Below the pieces are notes generated by a model. That model was not told the DNA's origin, searched no databases, and saw only the letters and a list, made by a program, of their open reading frames with translations. A DNA stretch of 64,000 nt from Anaerococcus nagyae. GTDB lineage: Bacteria > Bacillota > Clostridia > Tissierellales > Peptoniphilaceae. The stretch is taken from contig NZ_JAGGLS010000001.1 in NCBI RefSeq assembly GCF_017874535.1, positions 310,001 through 374,000 of the forward strand. The letters are read 5' to 3'. The position numbers and the translations under genes are program-made. Shown here one piece after another: positions 3,030 to 57,539 of this stretch. Every line of letters begins with the position of its first letter. Positions within the stretch are counted from its first letter, which is position 1.

Positions 3030-4442
3030 TTAAATTCTTTTTATAAGCTCTTTTAAGAATTTGTAATTGTTTTCTACTGACTTTATACTAACACGCTCTG
3101 CCGGTGAGTGTGCTCCTTGTATTTCTGGTCCAAAGGAAATCATCTCAACATCTGGCATAACACCCTTAAATAGACCACATTCTAGACCCCCATGAGTGGT
3201 TGCAACTTCCATATCCGTTCCATTTTGCTCTTTCCATATATCATTTGCAATATCTATTAACTTAGTTTCTTCTCTTTGCCATCCTGTGTAAGCACTTTTT
3301 ATCTCTGCCTTACCACCATATAATTTTACAATTTTTGTAGCTATAGCTGCTCTATTAAATTTAGCAGAATCAATTTGTGATCTAATCATTGAGCTCATTC
3401 TAATCTCATCTTCACTTTCTTCTAGTATACCTAGATTTGATGAAGTTATAATCTCATCTTTATATTTTTTATACAAACCATTAGGTAAGGTGTATATACA
3501 GTCAATTATATTTTTAGATAAATTTTGGCTAAGAACTTTTCCATTAAAACTAGTTTCTTCTATACTGATTTGTCCCTTAGGGTCTGTATCTTTTGATTCA
3601 TTTAATATATCCTCTTTTCTGCTATTAATTTCTTCTATAGCACTTTTTTTATCAGATACAGAAACTATGGCATAGGCCGTAGATGGGATAGCATTCCTCT
3701 TTACACCACCATTAAACTCTGCTATTTGTACTCCGTCTATATCTACTAATAACCTAGCCAAACTATTTATAGCATTGATCCTAGCTTTATCAATTTCCAT
3801 TCCAGAATGGCCACCTTCAAATCCTCTTAGGTCAAGTTTAATAAAGTCTCCTTTAGCATCTTCATATTCTTTTTCAAATGTTATTTCTAAATCAAGACCT
3901 CCAGCACATCCTATCGTAAGAGCACCTTCTTCTTCTGAATCTATATTTAATAAATATTTTGCATTTATATCCGTTCCATCAAGAGCATTTGCACCAACCA
4001 TTGATGTTTCCTCTCCTGTTGTAATGATTGCTTCAAGCGGCCCATGTTCTAGTGAATCATCATCAAATATTGCAAGAATAAAAGCCACTCCCATACCATC
4101 ATCGGCACCTAGGGTAGTCTTATCAGCCGTTACCCATTCATCTTCTATCAATAATTTTATAGGGTCTTTACTAAAGTCATGATCAGAATCATCTTCTTTT
4201 ACACAAACCATATCCATATGAGCTTGTAAAGCCACAGTTTCTCTATTCTCACAACCAGATGAAGCATTCTTTTTCATAATTACATTAAGAGCCTCATCTT
4301 GACGTACTTCTAGTTTATGTTCTTTAGCAAAATTTACCAAATAATCTGAAACAGCTTTTTCATCTCCAGAGCATCTAGGAATTTCGCTTAATTCTTTAAA
4401 ATATCTCCAAACTTCTTTAGGATTTAATTCATTATATTCCAT
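3030..4442 (-). CDS. pepD: PepD-type aminoacyl-histidine dipeptidase (M20 family)
   Basis: This 470-residue zinc peptidase belongs to the PepD (beta-Ala-His dipeptidase) branch of family M20. The metal-binding motif QAHMDMVC puts His75 and Asp77 in place, LGADDGMG carries the bridging Asp near residue 114, and TTGEETSMVGA supplies the catalytic Glu pair. The C-terminal HGGLECG and GPEIQGAHSPAERV are typical of PepD. It cleaves dipeptides, often Xaa-His, in the cytoplasm and would feed amino acid fermentation. It starts 38 bases after the upstream glycosyltransferase on the same strand, so the two may be co-transcribed, though no functional link is apparent. A clear terminator follows. Confidence 0.93.
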   Translation of the reverse strand: MEYNELNPKEVWRYFKELSEIPRCSGDEKAVSDYLVNFAKEHKLEVRQDEALNVIMKKNASSGCENRETVALQAHMDMVCVKEDDSDHDFSKDPIKLLIEDEWVTADKTTLGADDGMGVAFILAIFDDDSLEHGPLEAIITTGEETSMVGANALDGTDINAKYLLNIDSEEEGALTIGCAGGLDLEITFEKEYEDAKGDFIKLDLRGFEGGHSGMEIDKARINAINSLARLLVDIDGVQIAEFNGGVKRNAIPSTAYAIVSVSDKKSAIEEINSRKEDILNESKDTDPKGQISIEETSFNGKVLSQNLSKNIIDCIYTLPNGLYKKYKDEIITSSNLGILEESEDEIRMSSMIRSQIDSAKFNRAAIATKIVKLYGGKAEIKSAYTGWQREETKLIDIANDIWKEQNGTDMEVATTHGGLECGLFKGVMPDVEMISFGPEIQGAHSPAERVSIKSVENNYKFLKELIKRI

Positions 4443-53097: not shown

Positions 53098-54648
53098 ATG
53101 AAGGAAAAACTTCAAAGATTGGGTCAGTCTCTAATGCAGCCAGTTGCAGTAATGCCTCTTGCAGCGCTACTTATGGGAATCGGTTACTTAATCGATCCAG
53201 AATTTTGGGGTGCAGGTTCACCTGTAGCAGCATTTTTCATTTCTGCAGGTGGTGCAATTTTAGATAATTTAGGTATTTTATTTGCTGTAGGTATTGCATT
53301 TGGTATTGCAAAGGAAAATCATGGTGCTAGTGCTTTGGCAGGACTTGTAGCATTTTTAACCTTATCAAAGATGCTTTCTACTGATACCATAGCACAACTA
53401 AGATCTCTTGATCTTGAAGCATGGAAACTTGCAGAGCCTTATAAGGTTGCAGCTTTTGATGCTATAAATAACAAAAACGTACTTATTGGTATACTATCAG
53501 GTATCCTAGGTGGAAAGGCTTATGATAGATTCCACGGCACGACACTTCCTGATTTCTTAGCATTTTTTTCAGGTAGAAGACTTGTTCCAATCATGGCATC
53601 TTTATATGCACTTATCTCATCAGTCATTCTAGTATTCATATGGCCTTTTATTTTTGCAGGACTTGCAAAATTTGGCTCAACACTAACAAAAATGGGAGCT
53701 CTTGGAGCTGGACTATATGGTTTCTTTAATAGACTATTAATTCCAACAGGACTCCACCATGCCCTAAACCAAGTATTCTGGTTTGATCTTGCAGGAATAA
53801 ATGATATACCAAACTTTATCGGTAATGTCAAAGACTCAATAACAGCTACCTATCATCCAGGTATGTATCAAGCAGGATTTTTTCCAATAATGATGTTTGG
53901 CTTGCCAGGTGCAGCTTTGGCAATAGCAAATAGCGCAGATGAAGATAAGAAAAAAACTACAAAAGCTTTAATGCTTGCAGGTGCTCTCGCATCATTCTTA
54001 ACAGGAGTAACAGAACCTCTTGAGTTTGCATTCATGTTCGTAGCTCCCCAATTGTATTTTGTTCATGCCTTATTAACAGGTATTTCTGTATTCCTTGCAA
54101 CTAAATTACAAACTTATGCAGGATTTGGATTTTCAGCAGGATTAATAGATTTATTCTTATCATCTAAAAATCCAATGAGAAGCAAAATATGGATACTCAT
54201 AGTAATGGGTATAGTATTCTTTATCCTATACTATTTTATCTTTAAATTACTTATTGAAAAATGGGATATAGCAACACCAGGTAGAACAGCTAAAGCTAAT
54301 AGTGATACGACAGTTATCCACACAGAGGATAAGGGAAGAGTATCAACAGCTGATAAATCAGAAAAAGAAGAAAGAGCTGAACAAAAAGTAAGCTTATCAA
54401 GCTCACATAAAGAGGCTGCTAAAATTATACTAGAGGGCTTAGGCGGTTCAGAAAATGTGGATACAACAAGTTATTGCACAACAAGGCTTAGACTAACAGT
54501 CAATGATCCAAACAAAGTAGATGATGAAAAAATAAAATCTGCAGGGATAGCAGGTCTTATAAAACCAGGTTCTAAGACAGTTCAAGTAATAATTGGCCCA
54601 CAAGTACAAGCAGTCCATGATGAATTTGTGGAGTTATTAGATAAATAA
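53098..54648 (+). CDS. nagE: PTS permease IIC-IIB, N-acetylglucosamine type
   Basis: The 516-residue protein joins an EIIC membrane domain (about residues 1-390) to a C-terminal EIIB domain (about 430-516). EIIC has LGQSLMQPVAVMPLAALLMG and FNRLLIPTGLHHALNQVFWF, typical of NagE and glucose IIC; NQVFWFDLAGIND fits the GlcNAc branch. EIIB has the phosphorylated Cys in TTSYCTTRLRL. There is no IIA domain, so IIA comes from elsewhere. HPr is at 2.5 kb and NagB at 40 kb. The ATG at 53098 follows GGGGGTAG; the TTG start four codons earlier is less likely. Its terminator is the first of three near-identical ones in this region. Confidence 0.9.
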   Translation: MKEKLQRLGQSLMQPVAVMPLAALLMGIGYLIDPEFWGAGSPVAAFFISAGGAILDNLGILFAVGIAFGIAKENHGASALAGLVAFLTLSKMLSTDTIAQLRSLDLEAWKLAEPYKVAAFDAINNKNVLIGILSGILGGKAYDRFHGTTLPDFLAFFSGRRLVPIMASLYALISSVILVFIWPFIFAGLAKFGSTLTKMGALGAGLYGFFNRLLIPTGLHHALNQVFWFDLAGINDIPNFIGNVKDSITATYHPGMYQAGFFPIMMFGLPGAALAIANSADEDKKKTTKALMLAGALASFLTGVTEPLEFAFMFVAPQLYFVHALLTGISVFLATKLQTYAGFGFSAGLIDLFLSSKNPMRSKIWILIVMGIVFFILYYFIFKLLIEKWDIATPGRTAKANSDTTVIHTEDKGRVSTADKSEKEERAEQKVSLSSSHKEAAKIILEGLGGSENVDTTSYCTTRLRLTVNDPNKVDDEKIKSAGIAGLIKPGSKTVQVIIGPQVQAVHDEFVELLDK

Positions 54649-54658
54649 AATCAACAAT

Positions 54659-54689
54659 AAAGACAGTAGTTGGAGCTACTGTCTTTTTT
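54659..54689. terminator. terminator of nagE, shared with an antitoxin-like unit
   Basis: Arms AAAGACAGTAG (54659-54669) and CTACTGTCTTT (54676-54686) form an 11-bp stem, followed by T-run on the + strand; the A-rich left side allows minus-strand use. The same arms recur at 54980 and 56145. Confidence 0.9.
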
Positions 54690-54753
54690 AATGATTTTAT
54701 ATTCTGTTTCGATTCTCATTCTTATTGCTTAGGGCTTTGCTTCTCTTAAGTTC
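54659..54753 (-). ncRNA. second antitoxin-RNA-like unit without a toxin
   Basis: Read leftward from a TATAAT (54754-54759), the region gives TAAGAGAAGC then AAAGCCCTAAGCAATAAG before the nagE terminator. The true antitoxin RNA at 55.0 kb reads TAAGAGAAGCCACC then AAAGCCCTTGGCAACAAGG in the same order and ends at the same kind of terminator. A toxin ORF is absent. The -35 is weak, so activity is uncertain; this may be a relic of a duplicated locus. Confidence 0.4.
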
Positions 54754-54879
54754 ATTATAGCTTATTTTACGTATTATTAAATGTAAGCATACCGTATGTA
54801 TACTATACTATGTGGAAAACTAATACTGTGCTATAATTAAATAGCCACTTTACTAAGTGGTGAGAGGGGGTGATATGAA

Positions 54880-54972
54880 ATGTTACCATCAGTAATGGAA
54901 AATTTTATTTTCCCCTTGCTAGTTGGAATTATACTTTTGATAATATCAAAGTATATAAAATCAGAAAACTAG
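54880..54972 (+). CDS. Fst-family type I toxin (30-residue membrane peptide)
   Basis: The 30-residue peptide is hydrophobic in its middle: FPLLVGIILLIISKYI, then KSEN. It fits the Fst/Ldr pattern (Ile-x-Pro, Val-Gly, hydrophobic, Ile-Ser-Lys/Arg); the pAD1 Fst peptide has APIFVGLVLEMISRVL at the same place. Such peptides disturb the membrane when not repressed. The AGGGGGTG ribosome site is 7 bases upstream and next to a stem CCACTT/AAGTGG (54844-54859) that could hide it. The promoter is an extended -10, TGCTATAAT (54829-54837). An overlapping 6-codon frame (MKCYHQ) starts at 54875. Antisense RNA: next entry. Confidence 0.7.
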   Translation: MLPSVMENFIFPLLVGIILLIISKYIKSEN

Positions 54973-54977
54973 CAAAG

Positions 54978-55010
54978 AAAAAGACAGTAGTTCGCACCTA
55001 CTGTCTTTTT
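54978..55010. terminator. shared bidirectional terminator of the toxin and antitoxin RNAs
   Basis: Arms AAAGACAGTAG (54980-54990) and CTACTGTCTTT (54998-55008) with a 7-base loop. A-runs on the left and T-runs on the right give termination on both strands, as in par-type loci. Confidence 0.88.
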
Positions 55011-55081
55011 TAGTGAGTAATACTACTCTGTTACCATCAGTTTTCCTTGTTGCCAAGGGCTTTGGTAGAGGTGGCTTCTCT
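54978..55081 (-). ncRNA. antisense antitoxin RNA (RNA II-like) of the Fst locus
   Basis: A promoter on the minus strand (TTGAAA 55111-55116, 17 bases, TATAAT 55088-55093) should start an RNA near 55081 that runs toward the toxin gene and ends in the shared terminator, about 100 bases long. The sequence contains the complement of TGTTACCATCAGT (55029-55041), an exact 13-base copy of the toxin start region (54881-54893), so it can pair with the toxin mRNA at its start codon as well as through the terminator loop. This is the arrangement of pAD1-type par loci. No RNA has been shown. Confidence 0.65.
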
Positions 55082-55087
55082 TACCTT

Positions 55088-55116
55088 ATTATATACCACT
55101 ATTAGTGGTTTTTCAA
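55088..55116 (-). promoter_or_regulatory. promoter of the antitoxin RNA
   Basis: TTGAAA (55111-55116), 17-base spacer, TATAAT (55088-55093) on the minus strand; the spacer also holds the inverted repeat CCACTATTAGTGG (55097-55109). Confidence 0.7.
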
Positions 55117-55163
55117 TAATAATAATCCTTTAAAGATGGGTAGGAATACTAAAAGGAGTAGAA

Positions 55164-56088
55164 ATGAAAAGACTATTAAACTTTCAAGGAGCAGACTTTT
55201 TAAATGCAAGTCCCCTAGAATTAAAACAAGCGATCCTAGCCAACGAGGGCAGGGTTATCGTTTCAGAATCAGTTGTGACCTACCAGCCTTATGTAAATGG
55301 TGTAAGCAATGCAGAAATAGAAAAAGCCTTCGGTGCAGATATTTTACTATTAAATGCTCTCGATTTAGAAAATCCTAAGATAGAAGGTGTACCAGATCAA
55401 GAAATAAACCACATAGGCTGGCTTAAAAAAGCTACATCAAGACCCTTGGGAATAAACCTAGAACCAGTAGATGAAAGTGCAAAAATGACCCAAGGCAGAG
55501 AAGAAATATCAAAAGGACGTAATGCAAGCATAGAAAATTACAAAAAAGCCAATGATTACGGCCTAGATTTAATATGCCTAACAGGTAACCCAGCCACAGG
55601 AGTGACAAACAAAGCAATATTAAAAGCAATTAAAGAAGCAAAAGAAAACTTTAACGGCCTAGTTATAGCCGGCAAAATGCATGCAGCAGGTACTGATGAA
55701 GTTGTAATGAACCTAGAAATAGCCAAAGAATTTATAAATGCAGGCTGCGATATACTTCTAGTGCCAGCCCCATACACCATCCCCCCACTTTAACGAAAAT
55801 GACCTAAGAGAAATAGCCGACTATATTAGAAATTATAATAAAAACAAAGATATAGATAAAAAAGTACTAATAATGACTGCCATAGGTACCAGCCAAGAAA
55901 CATCAGACAAAGACACAATAAGAAAAATAGCTTTAGCAGCAAAAGCAAACGGCGCCCACCTCCAACACATAGGAGATGCTATGAATGGCATATCCTTGCC
56001 AGAAAATATTTATACTATGGGAGTAGCTATTAGAGGAGTAAGATGGCAAATTTATCAGATGAGTTCTTCAATAATTAGAAATAAGTAA
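55164..56088 (+). pseudogene. DUF7916-family protein gene, broken by a frameshift
   Basis: The first frame gives 209 residues starting MKRLLNFQGADFLNASPLEL, a start shared by a conserved Firmicutes family (DUF7916, TIM-barrel-like, often beside PTS genes). At a run of six C (55781-55786) the frame breaks: ...PYTIPPL then stop. In the +1 frame the sequence goes on without a break as HFNENDLREIADYIRNYNKN through MTAIGTSQETSDKDTI to WQIYQMSSSIIRNK. Five C in place of six restores one protein of about 307 residues. AAAAGGAG precedes the start. The cause is a real mutation, phase variation at the C-run or an error; function is unknown. Confidence 0.82.
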
Positions 56089-56140
56089 AATTATAAAATC
56101 TTACTTATATATAGAAAAAAACCAAAAATTTTCCCGAAAG

Positions 56141-56172
56141 AAAAAAAGACAGTAGTTTATGCTACTGTCTTT
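56141..56172 (-). terminator. terminator of the MATE gene
   Basis: Arms AAAGACAGTAG (56145-56155) and CTACTGTCTTT (56162-56172); the right arm lies inside the last codons of the MATE gene. On the minus strand seven T follow. Third copy of the stem found at 54659 and 54980. Confidence 0.85.
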
Positions 56173-57539
56173 GCTGGTTCTAGGGTGTCTATCTTATTTC
56201 TAACTTCTTTTCTTAGCATCCATGTACATAAAACTGTGTTTAATGATTCTGCTATTACGAAAGCCCACCATGCTATATTTAGGTTGCCTGTGCGGCTTAG
56301 GGCGTAAAATATTGGTATTAGGATTATTAATTGTCTTAGGAACGATTGGAAGATAGCTATTTGCCAGTTTCCTAGAGATTGGAAAACTCCTCCTACTGCT
56401 ACTATAGATGGGACTGCTGTGATGTAGGATAGGGAAACTATTCTCATCATTGGCACCCCTATTTCTATCATGGATTCTGTTGCATTAAAAAATCCTAATA
56501 ATTGTTTTGGGAATATCCACATTATTAGTACTGATATTGTCATTAGAACAAAAGAGCTTTTTATAGCTAAACCAATAGACCCTTTTATTCTTTCTTTTTT
56601 TCTTGCTCCATAATTATAGGAAACTATAGTTGTTAGTGCATTTGATATACCAAATACTGGCAAGAATGCAAAGGACTGAAATTTAAACATTACACCAAAA
56701 GCTGCTATAGCACTTGCTCCAAAGTCTCTTAGAATTAAGTTTATAACAAAAACTACTATAGATCCTATAGTATTCATAACTGTAGTTGGTAGACCTATCA
56801 TAAAGATTTGTTTTACTATGTCTCCGTGGAATCTAAATTTTTTTGTAGTAAATTTGATGTCGGTATTTTTTGTTTTATTAAAATAAAAACCTATTAATGC
56901 TCCACCTAATTGTCCTATTACTGTTGCAATGGCAGCTCCTTTTACTTCAAGCCTTGGAAATCCAAAGAGCCCAAAAATTAATATTGGGTCAAGTATTAGA
57001 TTTATGACTGCTCCTGATATTTGGGTAATCATTGAGTAAGTAGTAAGAGATGTTGCTTGGAGTAACTTTTCTGCAAGCACTTGGAAAAATATCCCCATAC
57101 TAAAGATAGTTACAATATACATATATTCTTTAGTATAGGTTGTAACCGCTGCATTTTGTCCTTGGGCGTTGGCAAATGAGTTTGTAAATAATATACCAAC
57201 CAAGGCAAATATTACATATGTGATGGCAGATATTACTACTCCGTGGATAGCTACTGACCCTACCCTATCTCTATTATTTTCTCCCAAAAACCTAGATAAT
57301 AATGCTGAAGCTCCTACTCCTATACCTACTGCAAAGGCAATTAGGATATTTTGCACAGGAAATGCAAGAGATACTGCTGTCAGTGCATCTTCTGATATCC
57401 TTGATACAAACATTGAGTCTACTATATTATAGATTGATTGAACGAGCATTGAAATAACCATTGGTATTGCCATTTCTAGCAATAGTCTATCAATTGGTAA
57501 TGTTCCTAGTTTATTTTCTGTTATCTGTATTTCTTCCAT
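56157..57539 (-). CDS. MATE family multidrug/Na+ exporter
   Basis: The 460-residue protein has twelve hydrophobic helices in two halves. PIDRLLLEMAIPMVISMLVQ and NIVDSMFVSRISEDALTAVS at the N-terminus and NALTTIVSYNYGARKKERIK in the second half are typical of DinF/NorM-like MATE proteins. It expels organic cations or drugs using sodium or protons. Monocistronic. Its C-terminal codons overlap the terminator. Confidence 0.93.
   Translation of the reverse strand: MEEIQITENKLGTLPIDRLLLEMAIPMVISMLVQSIYNIVDSMFVSRISEDALTAVSLAFPVQNILIAFAVGIGVGASALLSRFLGENNRDRVGSVAIHGVVISAITYVIFALVGILFTNSFANAQGQNAAVTTYTKEYMYIVTIFSMGIFFQVLAEKLLQATSLTTYSMITQISGAVINLILDPILIFGLFGFPRLEVKGAAIATVIGQLGGALIGFYFNKTKNTDIKFTTKKFRFHGDIVKQIFMIGLPTTVMNTIGSIVVFVINLILRDFGASAIAAFGVMFKFQSFAFLPVFGISNALTTIVSYNYGARKKERIKGSIGLAIKSSFVLMTISVLIMWIFPKQLLGFFNATESMIEIGVPMMRIVSLSYITAVPSIVAVGGVFQSLGNWQIAIFQSFLRQLIILIPIFYALSRTGNLNIAWWAFVIAESLNTVLCTWMLRKEVRNKIDTLEPAKTVA

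Follow-up and report, generated by a model that had tools for sequence, protein, structure and literature searches.

In Anaerococcus nagyae, the region with a PTS EIIC/EIIB gene on one side and a DUF7916 gene on the other raises the question of whether a 30-codon ORF that faces a promoter on the opposite strand is one half of a toxin–antitoxin pair. The window, that is, the whole 64,000-nucleotide stretch of DNA that was analysed, is part of a 432,869-base contig from a genome of 1.75 Mb, and the content of the contig is chromosomal (PTS, DUF7916, MATE and a threonyl-tRNA-synthetase-like ORF, the last named by eye). The original prediction described here an Fst-type type I locus consisting of the ORF, a 5′ stem near its ribosome site, a bidirectional terminator, a minus-strand promoter and a pair of exact 13-base direct repeats. 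Each of these elements is present, and comparison with related genomes argues strongly that together they form a chromosomal par-like type I toxin–antitoxin locus, in which an antisense RNA would control a membrane peptide by pairing at its start site. The elements are as follows.

54829–54837, plus strand: toxin promoter, with an extended −10 (TGCTATAAT) and a weak −35; a TG-extended −10 is found in 24 of 27 loci examined.
54844–54861, plus strand: predicted 5′ hairpin of the toxin mRNA, GCCACTT-TACT-AAGTGGT, directly 3′ of the extended −10, with covarying arms in relatives.
54865–54870, plus strand: Shine–Dalgarno sequence AGGGGG, read from the sequence, 9 nt 5′ of the ATG.
54869–54887, plus strand: possible start-codon hairpin, GGTGATAT-GAA-ATGTTACC, from a fold of the leader.
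54880–54972, plus strand: toxin ORF of 30 codons with an ATG start, from the ORF list, profile and alignment; peptide MLPSVMENFIFPLLVGIILLIISKYIKSEN, with one hydrophobic helix and a P-L-L-V-G motif.
54881–54893, plus strand: toxin copy of the direct repeat DRb, TGTTACCATCAGT, starting at the T of the start codon and identical to the antisense copy at 13 of 13 positions.
54978–55010, both strands: shared bidirectional terminator, a perfect 13-bp stem that covaries in relatives, with a 7-nt loop, TTCGCAC on the plus strand.
54978–55081, minus strand: predicted antisense RNA (antitoxin) of about 104 nt, scoring 101.1 bits with the antisense-RNA model R1, of which its own sequence is part.
55015–55028, minus strand: predicted antisense-RNA hairpin, whose GUAUUACUC can pair, with G–U pairs, with GGGUGAUAU of the toxin ribosome site (a weak DRa), by fold and duplex prediction.
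55029–55041, minus strand: antisense copy of DRb, TGTTACCATCAGT, identical to the toxin copy at 13 of 13 positions.
55045–55081, minus strand: predicted 5′ domain of the antisense RNA, with hairpins at 55067–55081 (AGAGAAGCCACCUCU) and 55045–55058 (CCUUGGCAACAAGG).
55088–55116, minus strand: antisense promoter TTGAAA-17-TATAAT, with 11 of 12 consensus matches.
54657–54747, minus strand: decayed, toxin-less antisense copy (R1, 53.8 bits) with the repeat TGTTTCGATTC at 54705–54715; this degenerate second antisense half was absent from the original prediction.

Single signals of these kinds are common in A+T-rich DNA, and the case for the locus therefore rests on comparison. The antisense promoter is the best of six promoter-like sites between 54000 and 56400, and shuffles of that region hold 9.3 on average, so a promoter-like site by itself is not beyond chance. 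Nor is the leader hairpin of the window locus, which is equalled by 26 of 200 shuffles. The repeat of 13 bases compares with a longest chance repeat of 12 in 6000 shuffled comparisons over 30 loci. Folding gives z-scores of −3.98 for the antisense RNA and −6.36 for the toxin mRNA, of which the terminator accounts for part. An Rfam scan of 54000–56400 at E up to 5 returned ten matches, none of them at the gathering score and most of them to eukaryotic families.

A search profile built from 19 toxins of the window type finds 32 strong places (E below 1e-6) in 17 of 31 Anaerococcus genomes, with one to three per genome. The layout is complete (ORF, shared terminator, convergent antisense promoter and repeats) at 30 of these places; in one of the remaining two, inserted DNA separates the toxin from its antisense RNA, and in the other the toxin is truncated. 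Twenty-seven of the 32 loci were anchored by script, and three of the five that gave no terminator were added by hand to reach the 30. When the best site within a range is taken, the antisense promoter has 10–12 of 12 consensus matches in all 27 script-anchored loci, and the toxin promoter has a TG-extended −10 in 24 of them. Conservation of the ORF with its flanking signals in relatives had been set beforehand as a test, and the outcome was these 30 complete layouts. Because the same layout recurs at 30 loci in related genomes, the combination of elements is not attributable to chance. The suggestion of a chromosomal par homologue in an anaerobic coccus is thus supported by the host genus, the chromosomal gene content and the retention of the layout.

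Nine related loci lie in named genomes, eight of them in seven Anaerococcus species (provencensis, jeddahensis, obesiensis, ihuae, vaginalis, degeneri and, twice, sp. Marseille-P3915) and one in a Peptoniphilaceae MAG. In four genomes there are two copies, separated by about 310–325 bp. An order-wide toxin search of 249 genomes matched the same 17 genomes and one of another genus (G143, E 4.6e-4). The G143 place was rejected as a locus outside the genus: the 500 bases read there, a stretch that contains masked bases, show no such layout. Across the family, R1 has matches in 25 of 130 genomes, and the only one outside the genus is in G123 (C6:77679–77792, E 4.2e-5), which may mark such a locus in a further genus of the family. 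Searches by protein of plasmids and phages gave no match, and none of the 110 stretches of IMG/VR that matched the peptide pattern was confirmed; these collections therefore give no sign of a mobile carrier.

Covariation of the repeats is the decisive evidence for the locus. The toxin start shares at least 8 identical bases with its own antisense region in 29 of the 30 loci (mean 11.3), the lone exception being a locus in G029 (C6) with a repeat of 6. Swapped pairs reach 8 bases in only 36 of 870 cases (mean 5.2), even with near relatives of the same address included, and shuffled comparisons in 121 of 6000 (mean 5.05). The 30 loci fall into 23 repeat groups when repeats sharing at least 8 bases are merged. 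Since the repeats differ between loci yet match within each locus, they are kept for base pairing. The terminator stem behaves similarly, with 5 of its 12 pairs changed on both sides among 26 aligned loci; this alignment of antisense RNAs covers 26 of the 30, three with long apical loops and the one at G008, 1378746 being left out. Conserved layout, paired repeats and terminator stem are established here by comparison of sequences.

Each repeat can be regarded as the address of its locus. Predicted duplex energies average −32.6 kcal/mol for own pairs and −17.2 for swapped pairs, and the own partner is the best for 26 of 30. Among ordered pairs within the same genome the cognate duplex is the stronger in 32 of 32, by just 0.6 kcal/mol in one of them. 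For the window locus a duplex of −32.1 kcal/mol is predicted; its pairs include 13 that span the start codon and 9, G–U pairs counted, that span the ribosome site. Because the repeat lies within the coding region, the first residues differ from toxin to toxin, but the ENFxFPLL core keeps its E, N, F, P and L in all 19 aligned toxins. At one site, between gene clusters c2 and c3, six loci from five genomes carry five different repeats, and the address therefore changes in both copies at a fixed place. The second repeat, DRa, is less regular: an exact repeat of at least 6 bases occurs in 16 of 30 loci, against 167 of 870 swapped pairs, and in the window the exact repeat is just 5 bases long, although a match of 9 pairs, some of them G–U, is predicted.

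The remaining hairpins and the RNA duplex are predictions of folding models. The hairpin in the toxin leader occurs with 11 different pairs of arms among the 30 loci (for example CTATT/AATAG, CCTAA/TTAGG, CACTT/AAGTG and TCTCC/GGAGG) and is equalled by at most 10 of 200 shuffles in 16 loci, the window locus lying outside those 16. The 5′ end of the toxin mRNA is thus predicted to be closed in a helix. In a fold of the leader the start codon lies in a hairpin; when the whole mRNA is folded, it is the ribosome site that is paired, with the Phe-Pro-Leu codons as its partner. In 26 of 30 loci the antisense RNA is predicted to form a hairpin between its repeat and the terminator. It was also considered that the CCACCUC loop of the antisense 5′ hairpin might pair with the toxin ribosome site as an anti-Shine–Dalgarno sequence. 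ACCTC occurs within the first 20 nt of the antisense RNA in 23 of 30 loci; the idea was dropped as a general mechanism because the other seven RNAs have another loop.

A mechanism of the following kind is likely. The plus strand would give a short mRNA encoding a membrane peptide of 30 residues; this mRNA would be closed at its 5′ end by the hairpin and would have its ribosome site or start codon paired internally. The minus strand, from a near-consensus promoter, would give an antisense RNA of about 104 nt that ends in the common terminator; the transcription of both RNAs is presumed from their signals. First contact between the two would probably be made through the complementary loops of the terminator, where the UUCG of the toxin loop fits a YUNR U-turn; YUNR is present in the terminator apex of 18 of 30 loci and absent from 12. 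Pairing could then spread along the 13-base repeat to cover the start codon and, with the help of G–U pairs, the ribosome site as well, so that translation would be blocked. Should the antisense RNA drop, the peptide would be made, enter the membrane and, by analogy with Fst, arrest the cell. By the same analogy the peptide is very probably toxic to its own cell.

How far the name Fst-type is justified depends on whether it is applied to the locus or to the peptide. For layout and mechanism, which are par-like, the name holds. For the peptide it is tentative, since the search with the Fst_toxin profile that had been proposed as a check gave a score well below threshold: the window toxin scores 15 bits with Pfam Fst_toxin (PF13955; E 0.025) against a curated cut-off of 36. 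The same profile matches just 3 of the 19 window-type toxins at E up to 1. Over 61 genomes it matches 16 at E up to 1, none above the cut-off, and it is unhelpful here by itself because control genomes match as well (7 of 14). In NCBIfam the window toxin has one weak match, to a sporulation protein, far under the cut-off. The better of two matches in a PDB sequence search is 2kv5 (E 0.21, not significant alone), deposited as a protein of RNAI and corresponding to Fst of pAD1. The peptide has the P-x-x-x-G motif in the form PLLVG; its P is invariant in 19 of 19 aligned rows and its G is replaced by A in some. The peptide also fits P-U-U-(A/V)-G-U-U, where U is a hydrophobic residue, which is the motif given for Fst-Sm in excerpts of PMC3543317 minus its leading A. 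A tryptophan before the charged tail is named as a signature of the superfamily in excerpts of an Fst/Ldr review (PMC7472228). The window toxin has no tryptophan between helix and tail, and Fst of pAD1 likewise lacks one (PMC7472228, excerpts). Membership of the peptide in the Fst toxin family is thus only suggested by its sequence.

The peptide might instead be a small membrane protein with a regulatory role, such as modulating the sugar transporter encoded next to it, with an antisense RNA that just tunes its level. This reading draws on the neighbourhood: the window locus has the PTS EIIC/EIIB gene upstream and the DUF7916 gene downstream, the locus in G025 is likewise flanked by these two genes, and PTS neighbours are reported for par-EF0409 in excerpts of PMC7472228, where the function of chromosomal systems of the Fst/Ldr kind is called obscure. 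A link with sugar transport fits the window site, but this PTS or DUF7916 cluster lies within two ORFs on each side of only 4 of the 32 loci, other neighbours being unannotated, and a PTS neighbour as a general rule is unsupported. Furthermore, 10 of 40 strong antisense-RNA matches lack a recognisable toxin, and this is easier to reconcile with a harmful peptide than with a useful one. We consider a regulatory role improbable for these reasons.

It is also conceivable that the antisense RNA and terminator serve mainly the flanking genes, ending PTS transcripts and insulating the DUF7916 gene, and that the ORF is incidental. A terminator-like hairpin of the GACAGTAG type, as at the toxin locus, does occur again at 56145–56172, where it separates the DUF7916 gene from the MATE gene and no toxin ORF is seen beside it. 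This explanation seems very remote when set against the retention of ORF, start and repeats across 30 loci at several unrelated sites and against the invariant residues of the ENFxFPLL core. A chance assembly of A+T-rich promoters, terminator and repeat, although shuffled sequence holds promoter-like sites at least as often, is refuted by a layout conserved at 30 loci with covarying repeats and may be regarded as negligible.

R1 also retrieves loci with other peptides, of at least three further toxin types. Type 2 (LPLL..ILFELWKEKRNKD) is matched 9 times, in 7 of 31 genomes, at E up to 0.1, and type 3 (HYIIKWLDRYIKNDN) has peptide matches at E up to 0.01 in 19 of 31, the layout being checked for part of them; type 4 is seen in loci L194 and L196. 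The tryptophan before the charged tail is found in 7 of 9 type 2 rows and in 19 of 20 type 3 rows, of which the remaining one is in the wrong frame; one more type 3 toxin, in L193, is without it. Cognate repeats of at least 8 bases occur in 24 of 29 type 2 and type 3 rows, against 114 of 812 swapped pairs, where the 29 include one wrong-frame row (L223) and two near duplicates (L235 and L236). None of ten proteins of types 2–4 searched in Pfam (seven of them also in NCBIfam), and likewise not the window toxin, exceeds a curated cut-off; for type 4, NCBIfam gives a single weak match, a C. difficile type I toxin (15.3 bits, cut-off 60). Type 3 loci stand in tandem at L193 (G030; three loci) and L195 (G008; two loci), with repeats that differ around GGTACC, GATTCG or GAGTCG.

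Antisense RNAs without a recognisable toxin also occur in the genus. The R1 matches of at least 64 bits, 40 in number, were classified, and three weaker ones (G000, G030 and G005) were also read. Of the 40, 27 have an intact type 1 toxin beside them, one (G024, 547409) has a toxin of another kind, and two have one that is split or truncated. The remaining 10 have no toxin-like ORF ending near the terminator, a definition that a novel toxin type could escape. Their best promoter has 10–11 of 12 consensus matches in nine cases and 9 of 12 in one. The decayed copy in the window is an eleventh such RNA, with part of the 5′ hairpin missing and a poor −35 (TTTAAT). Its repeat is identical to that of the toxin locus in G025, which lies between the same two genes, and G012 has a toxin-less RNA with the same repeat, again between those genes.

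Some of these RNAs could be under selection. Over 101 nt, the toxin-less RNA in G012 shares 98% identity with the antisense RNA of G025, compared with 62% in the adjoining 45 nt, which form the promoter, and 83% beyond. Corresponding values are 87% for the decayed window copy and the G025 RNA, with 60% beside it; 89% for the toxin-less RNA in G027 and G020, with 78–86% in nearby DNA; 91% in G027 and G029, with 93–96% in downstream DNA; and 94% in G018 and G006, with 99% in downstream DNA. Selection is thus suggested at one site, and the other three comparisons show no clear excess. One toxin-less RNA, in G029, bears the 8-base address of a toxin 1.5 kb away. It is tempting to view the Anaerococcus loci as self-diversifying type I locks, in which one RNA chassis would serve swappable membrane toxins, and an address of about 8–17 bases in the first toxin codons would turn over in both copies at fixed sites so that paralogues in one cell do not silence one another, with the antisense RNAs that outlast their toxins as ready-made immunity against the loci of relatives. 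We offer this wider scheme tentatively, as a possibility that we would not expect to hold in full.

Insertions accompany two loci of this group. About 2.6 kb has been inserted between toxin and antisense RNA at L183 (G027 C1), and at L181 (G029 C8) the inserted DNA beside a toxin-less RNA carries a 364-codon ORF.

The closest parallel to the window locus is par of pAD1 (Fst/RNA I/RNA II) from Enterococcus faecalis. Both have convergent promoters and a common two-way terminator, repeats that cover the toxin start and recur within the antisense RNA, and a 5′ hairpin (the 5′ upstream helix of RNA I), and both encode a hydrophobic peptide of about 30 residues with P-x-x-x-G and no tryptophan (PMC7472228, excerpts). 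The window locus differs in being chromosomal, in its weak DRa, and in a peptide too distant for the Pfam cut-off; its antisense RNA of about 104 nt has an extra 5′ domain of two hairpins, in contrast to the roughly 40 nt of RNA II (PMC7472228, excerpts). The fst-Sm/srSm locus of Streptococcus mutans is likewise a chromosomal type I system with repeats over the toxin start, a bidirectional terminator and P-U-U-(A/V)-G-U-U. Its host belongs to another bacterial class, and genus-wide copies with different repeats are not described in the excerpts of PMC3543317 consulted here.

Like the window locus, par-EF0409 of E. faecalis is chromosomal and lies beside sugar PTS genes. Its neighbours are two mannitol PTS operons, whereas the window has a single PTS EIIC/EIIB neighbour and the neighbourhood is absent from 28 of the 32 related loci. 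The par-EF0409 and pAD1 systems do not cross-protect, presumably since their DRa and DRb differ (PMC7472228, excerpts). Clostridia are named among the hosts of the Fst subfamily in the same excerpts. Type I systems of Clostridia also resemble the window locus in pairing a small membrane toxin with an antisense RNA, and excerpts of PMC6563280 mention Fst-like sequences in C. bolteae and C. asparagiforme but not in Anaerococcus. The design (pAD1 par, fst-Sm/srSm) and the differences of address between par systems are thus already known, on the strength of excerpts of PMC7472228 and PMC3543317. New, as far as the literature was searched, are the expansion in Anaerococcus, the several toxin types on one RNA chassis, the antisense 5′ domain and the toxin-less copies. 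The literature search, whose broader part was covered to a small extent, found no report of par-like toxin–antitoxin loci in Anaerococcus.

The range of par-like loci thereby comes to include Anaerococcus, whose members are human-associated anaerobic cocci. The 30 complete copies found in nature, several of them at one site in different species, provide a ready series for the study of address turnover and cross-talk. They bear on how a toxin–antisense pair could change its recognition sequence without a lethal intermediate.

Two further features of the window's genome deserve mention. A degraded further locus lies at 3640–4030 of L147 (C1, about 114445–114835), with a broken toxin frame and a large inverted repeat at the place of the terminator. 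The DUF7916 gene, at 55164–56088, is in two pieces, 55164–55793 and 55873–56088. The first matches the front part of a single Pfam model and the second its back part, which suggests a frameshift close to a run of C at about 55785. DUF7916 is one longer ORF in other genomes, and the break in the window may be genuine or may stem from the assembly. A complete toxin locus directly follows the DUF7916 gene in G020 and G029.
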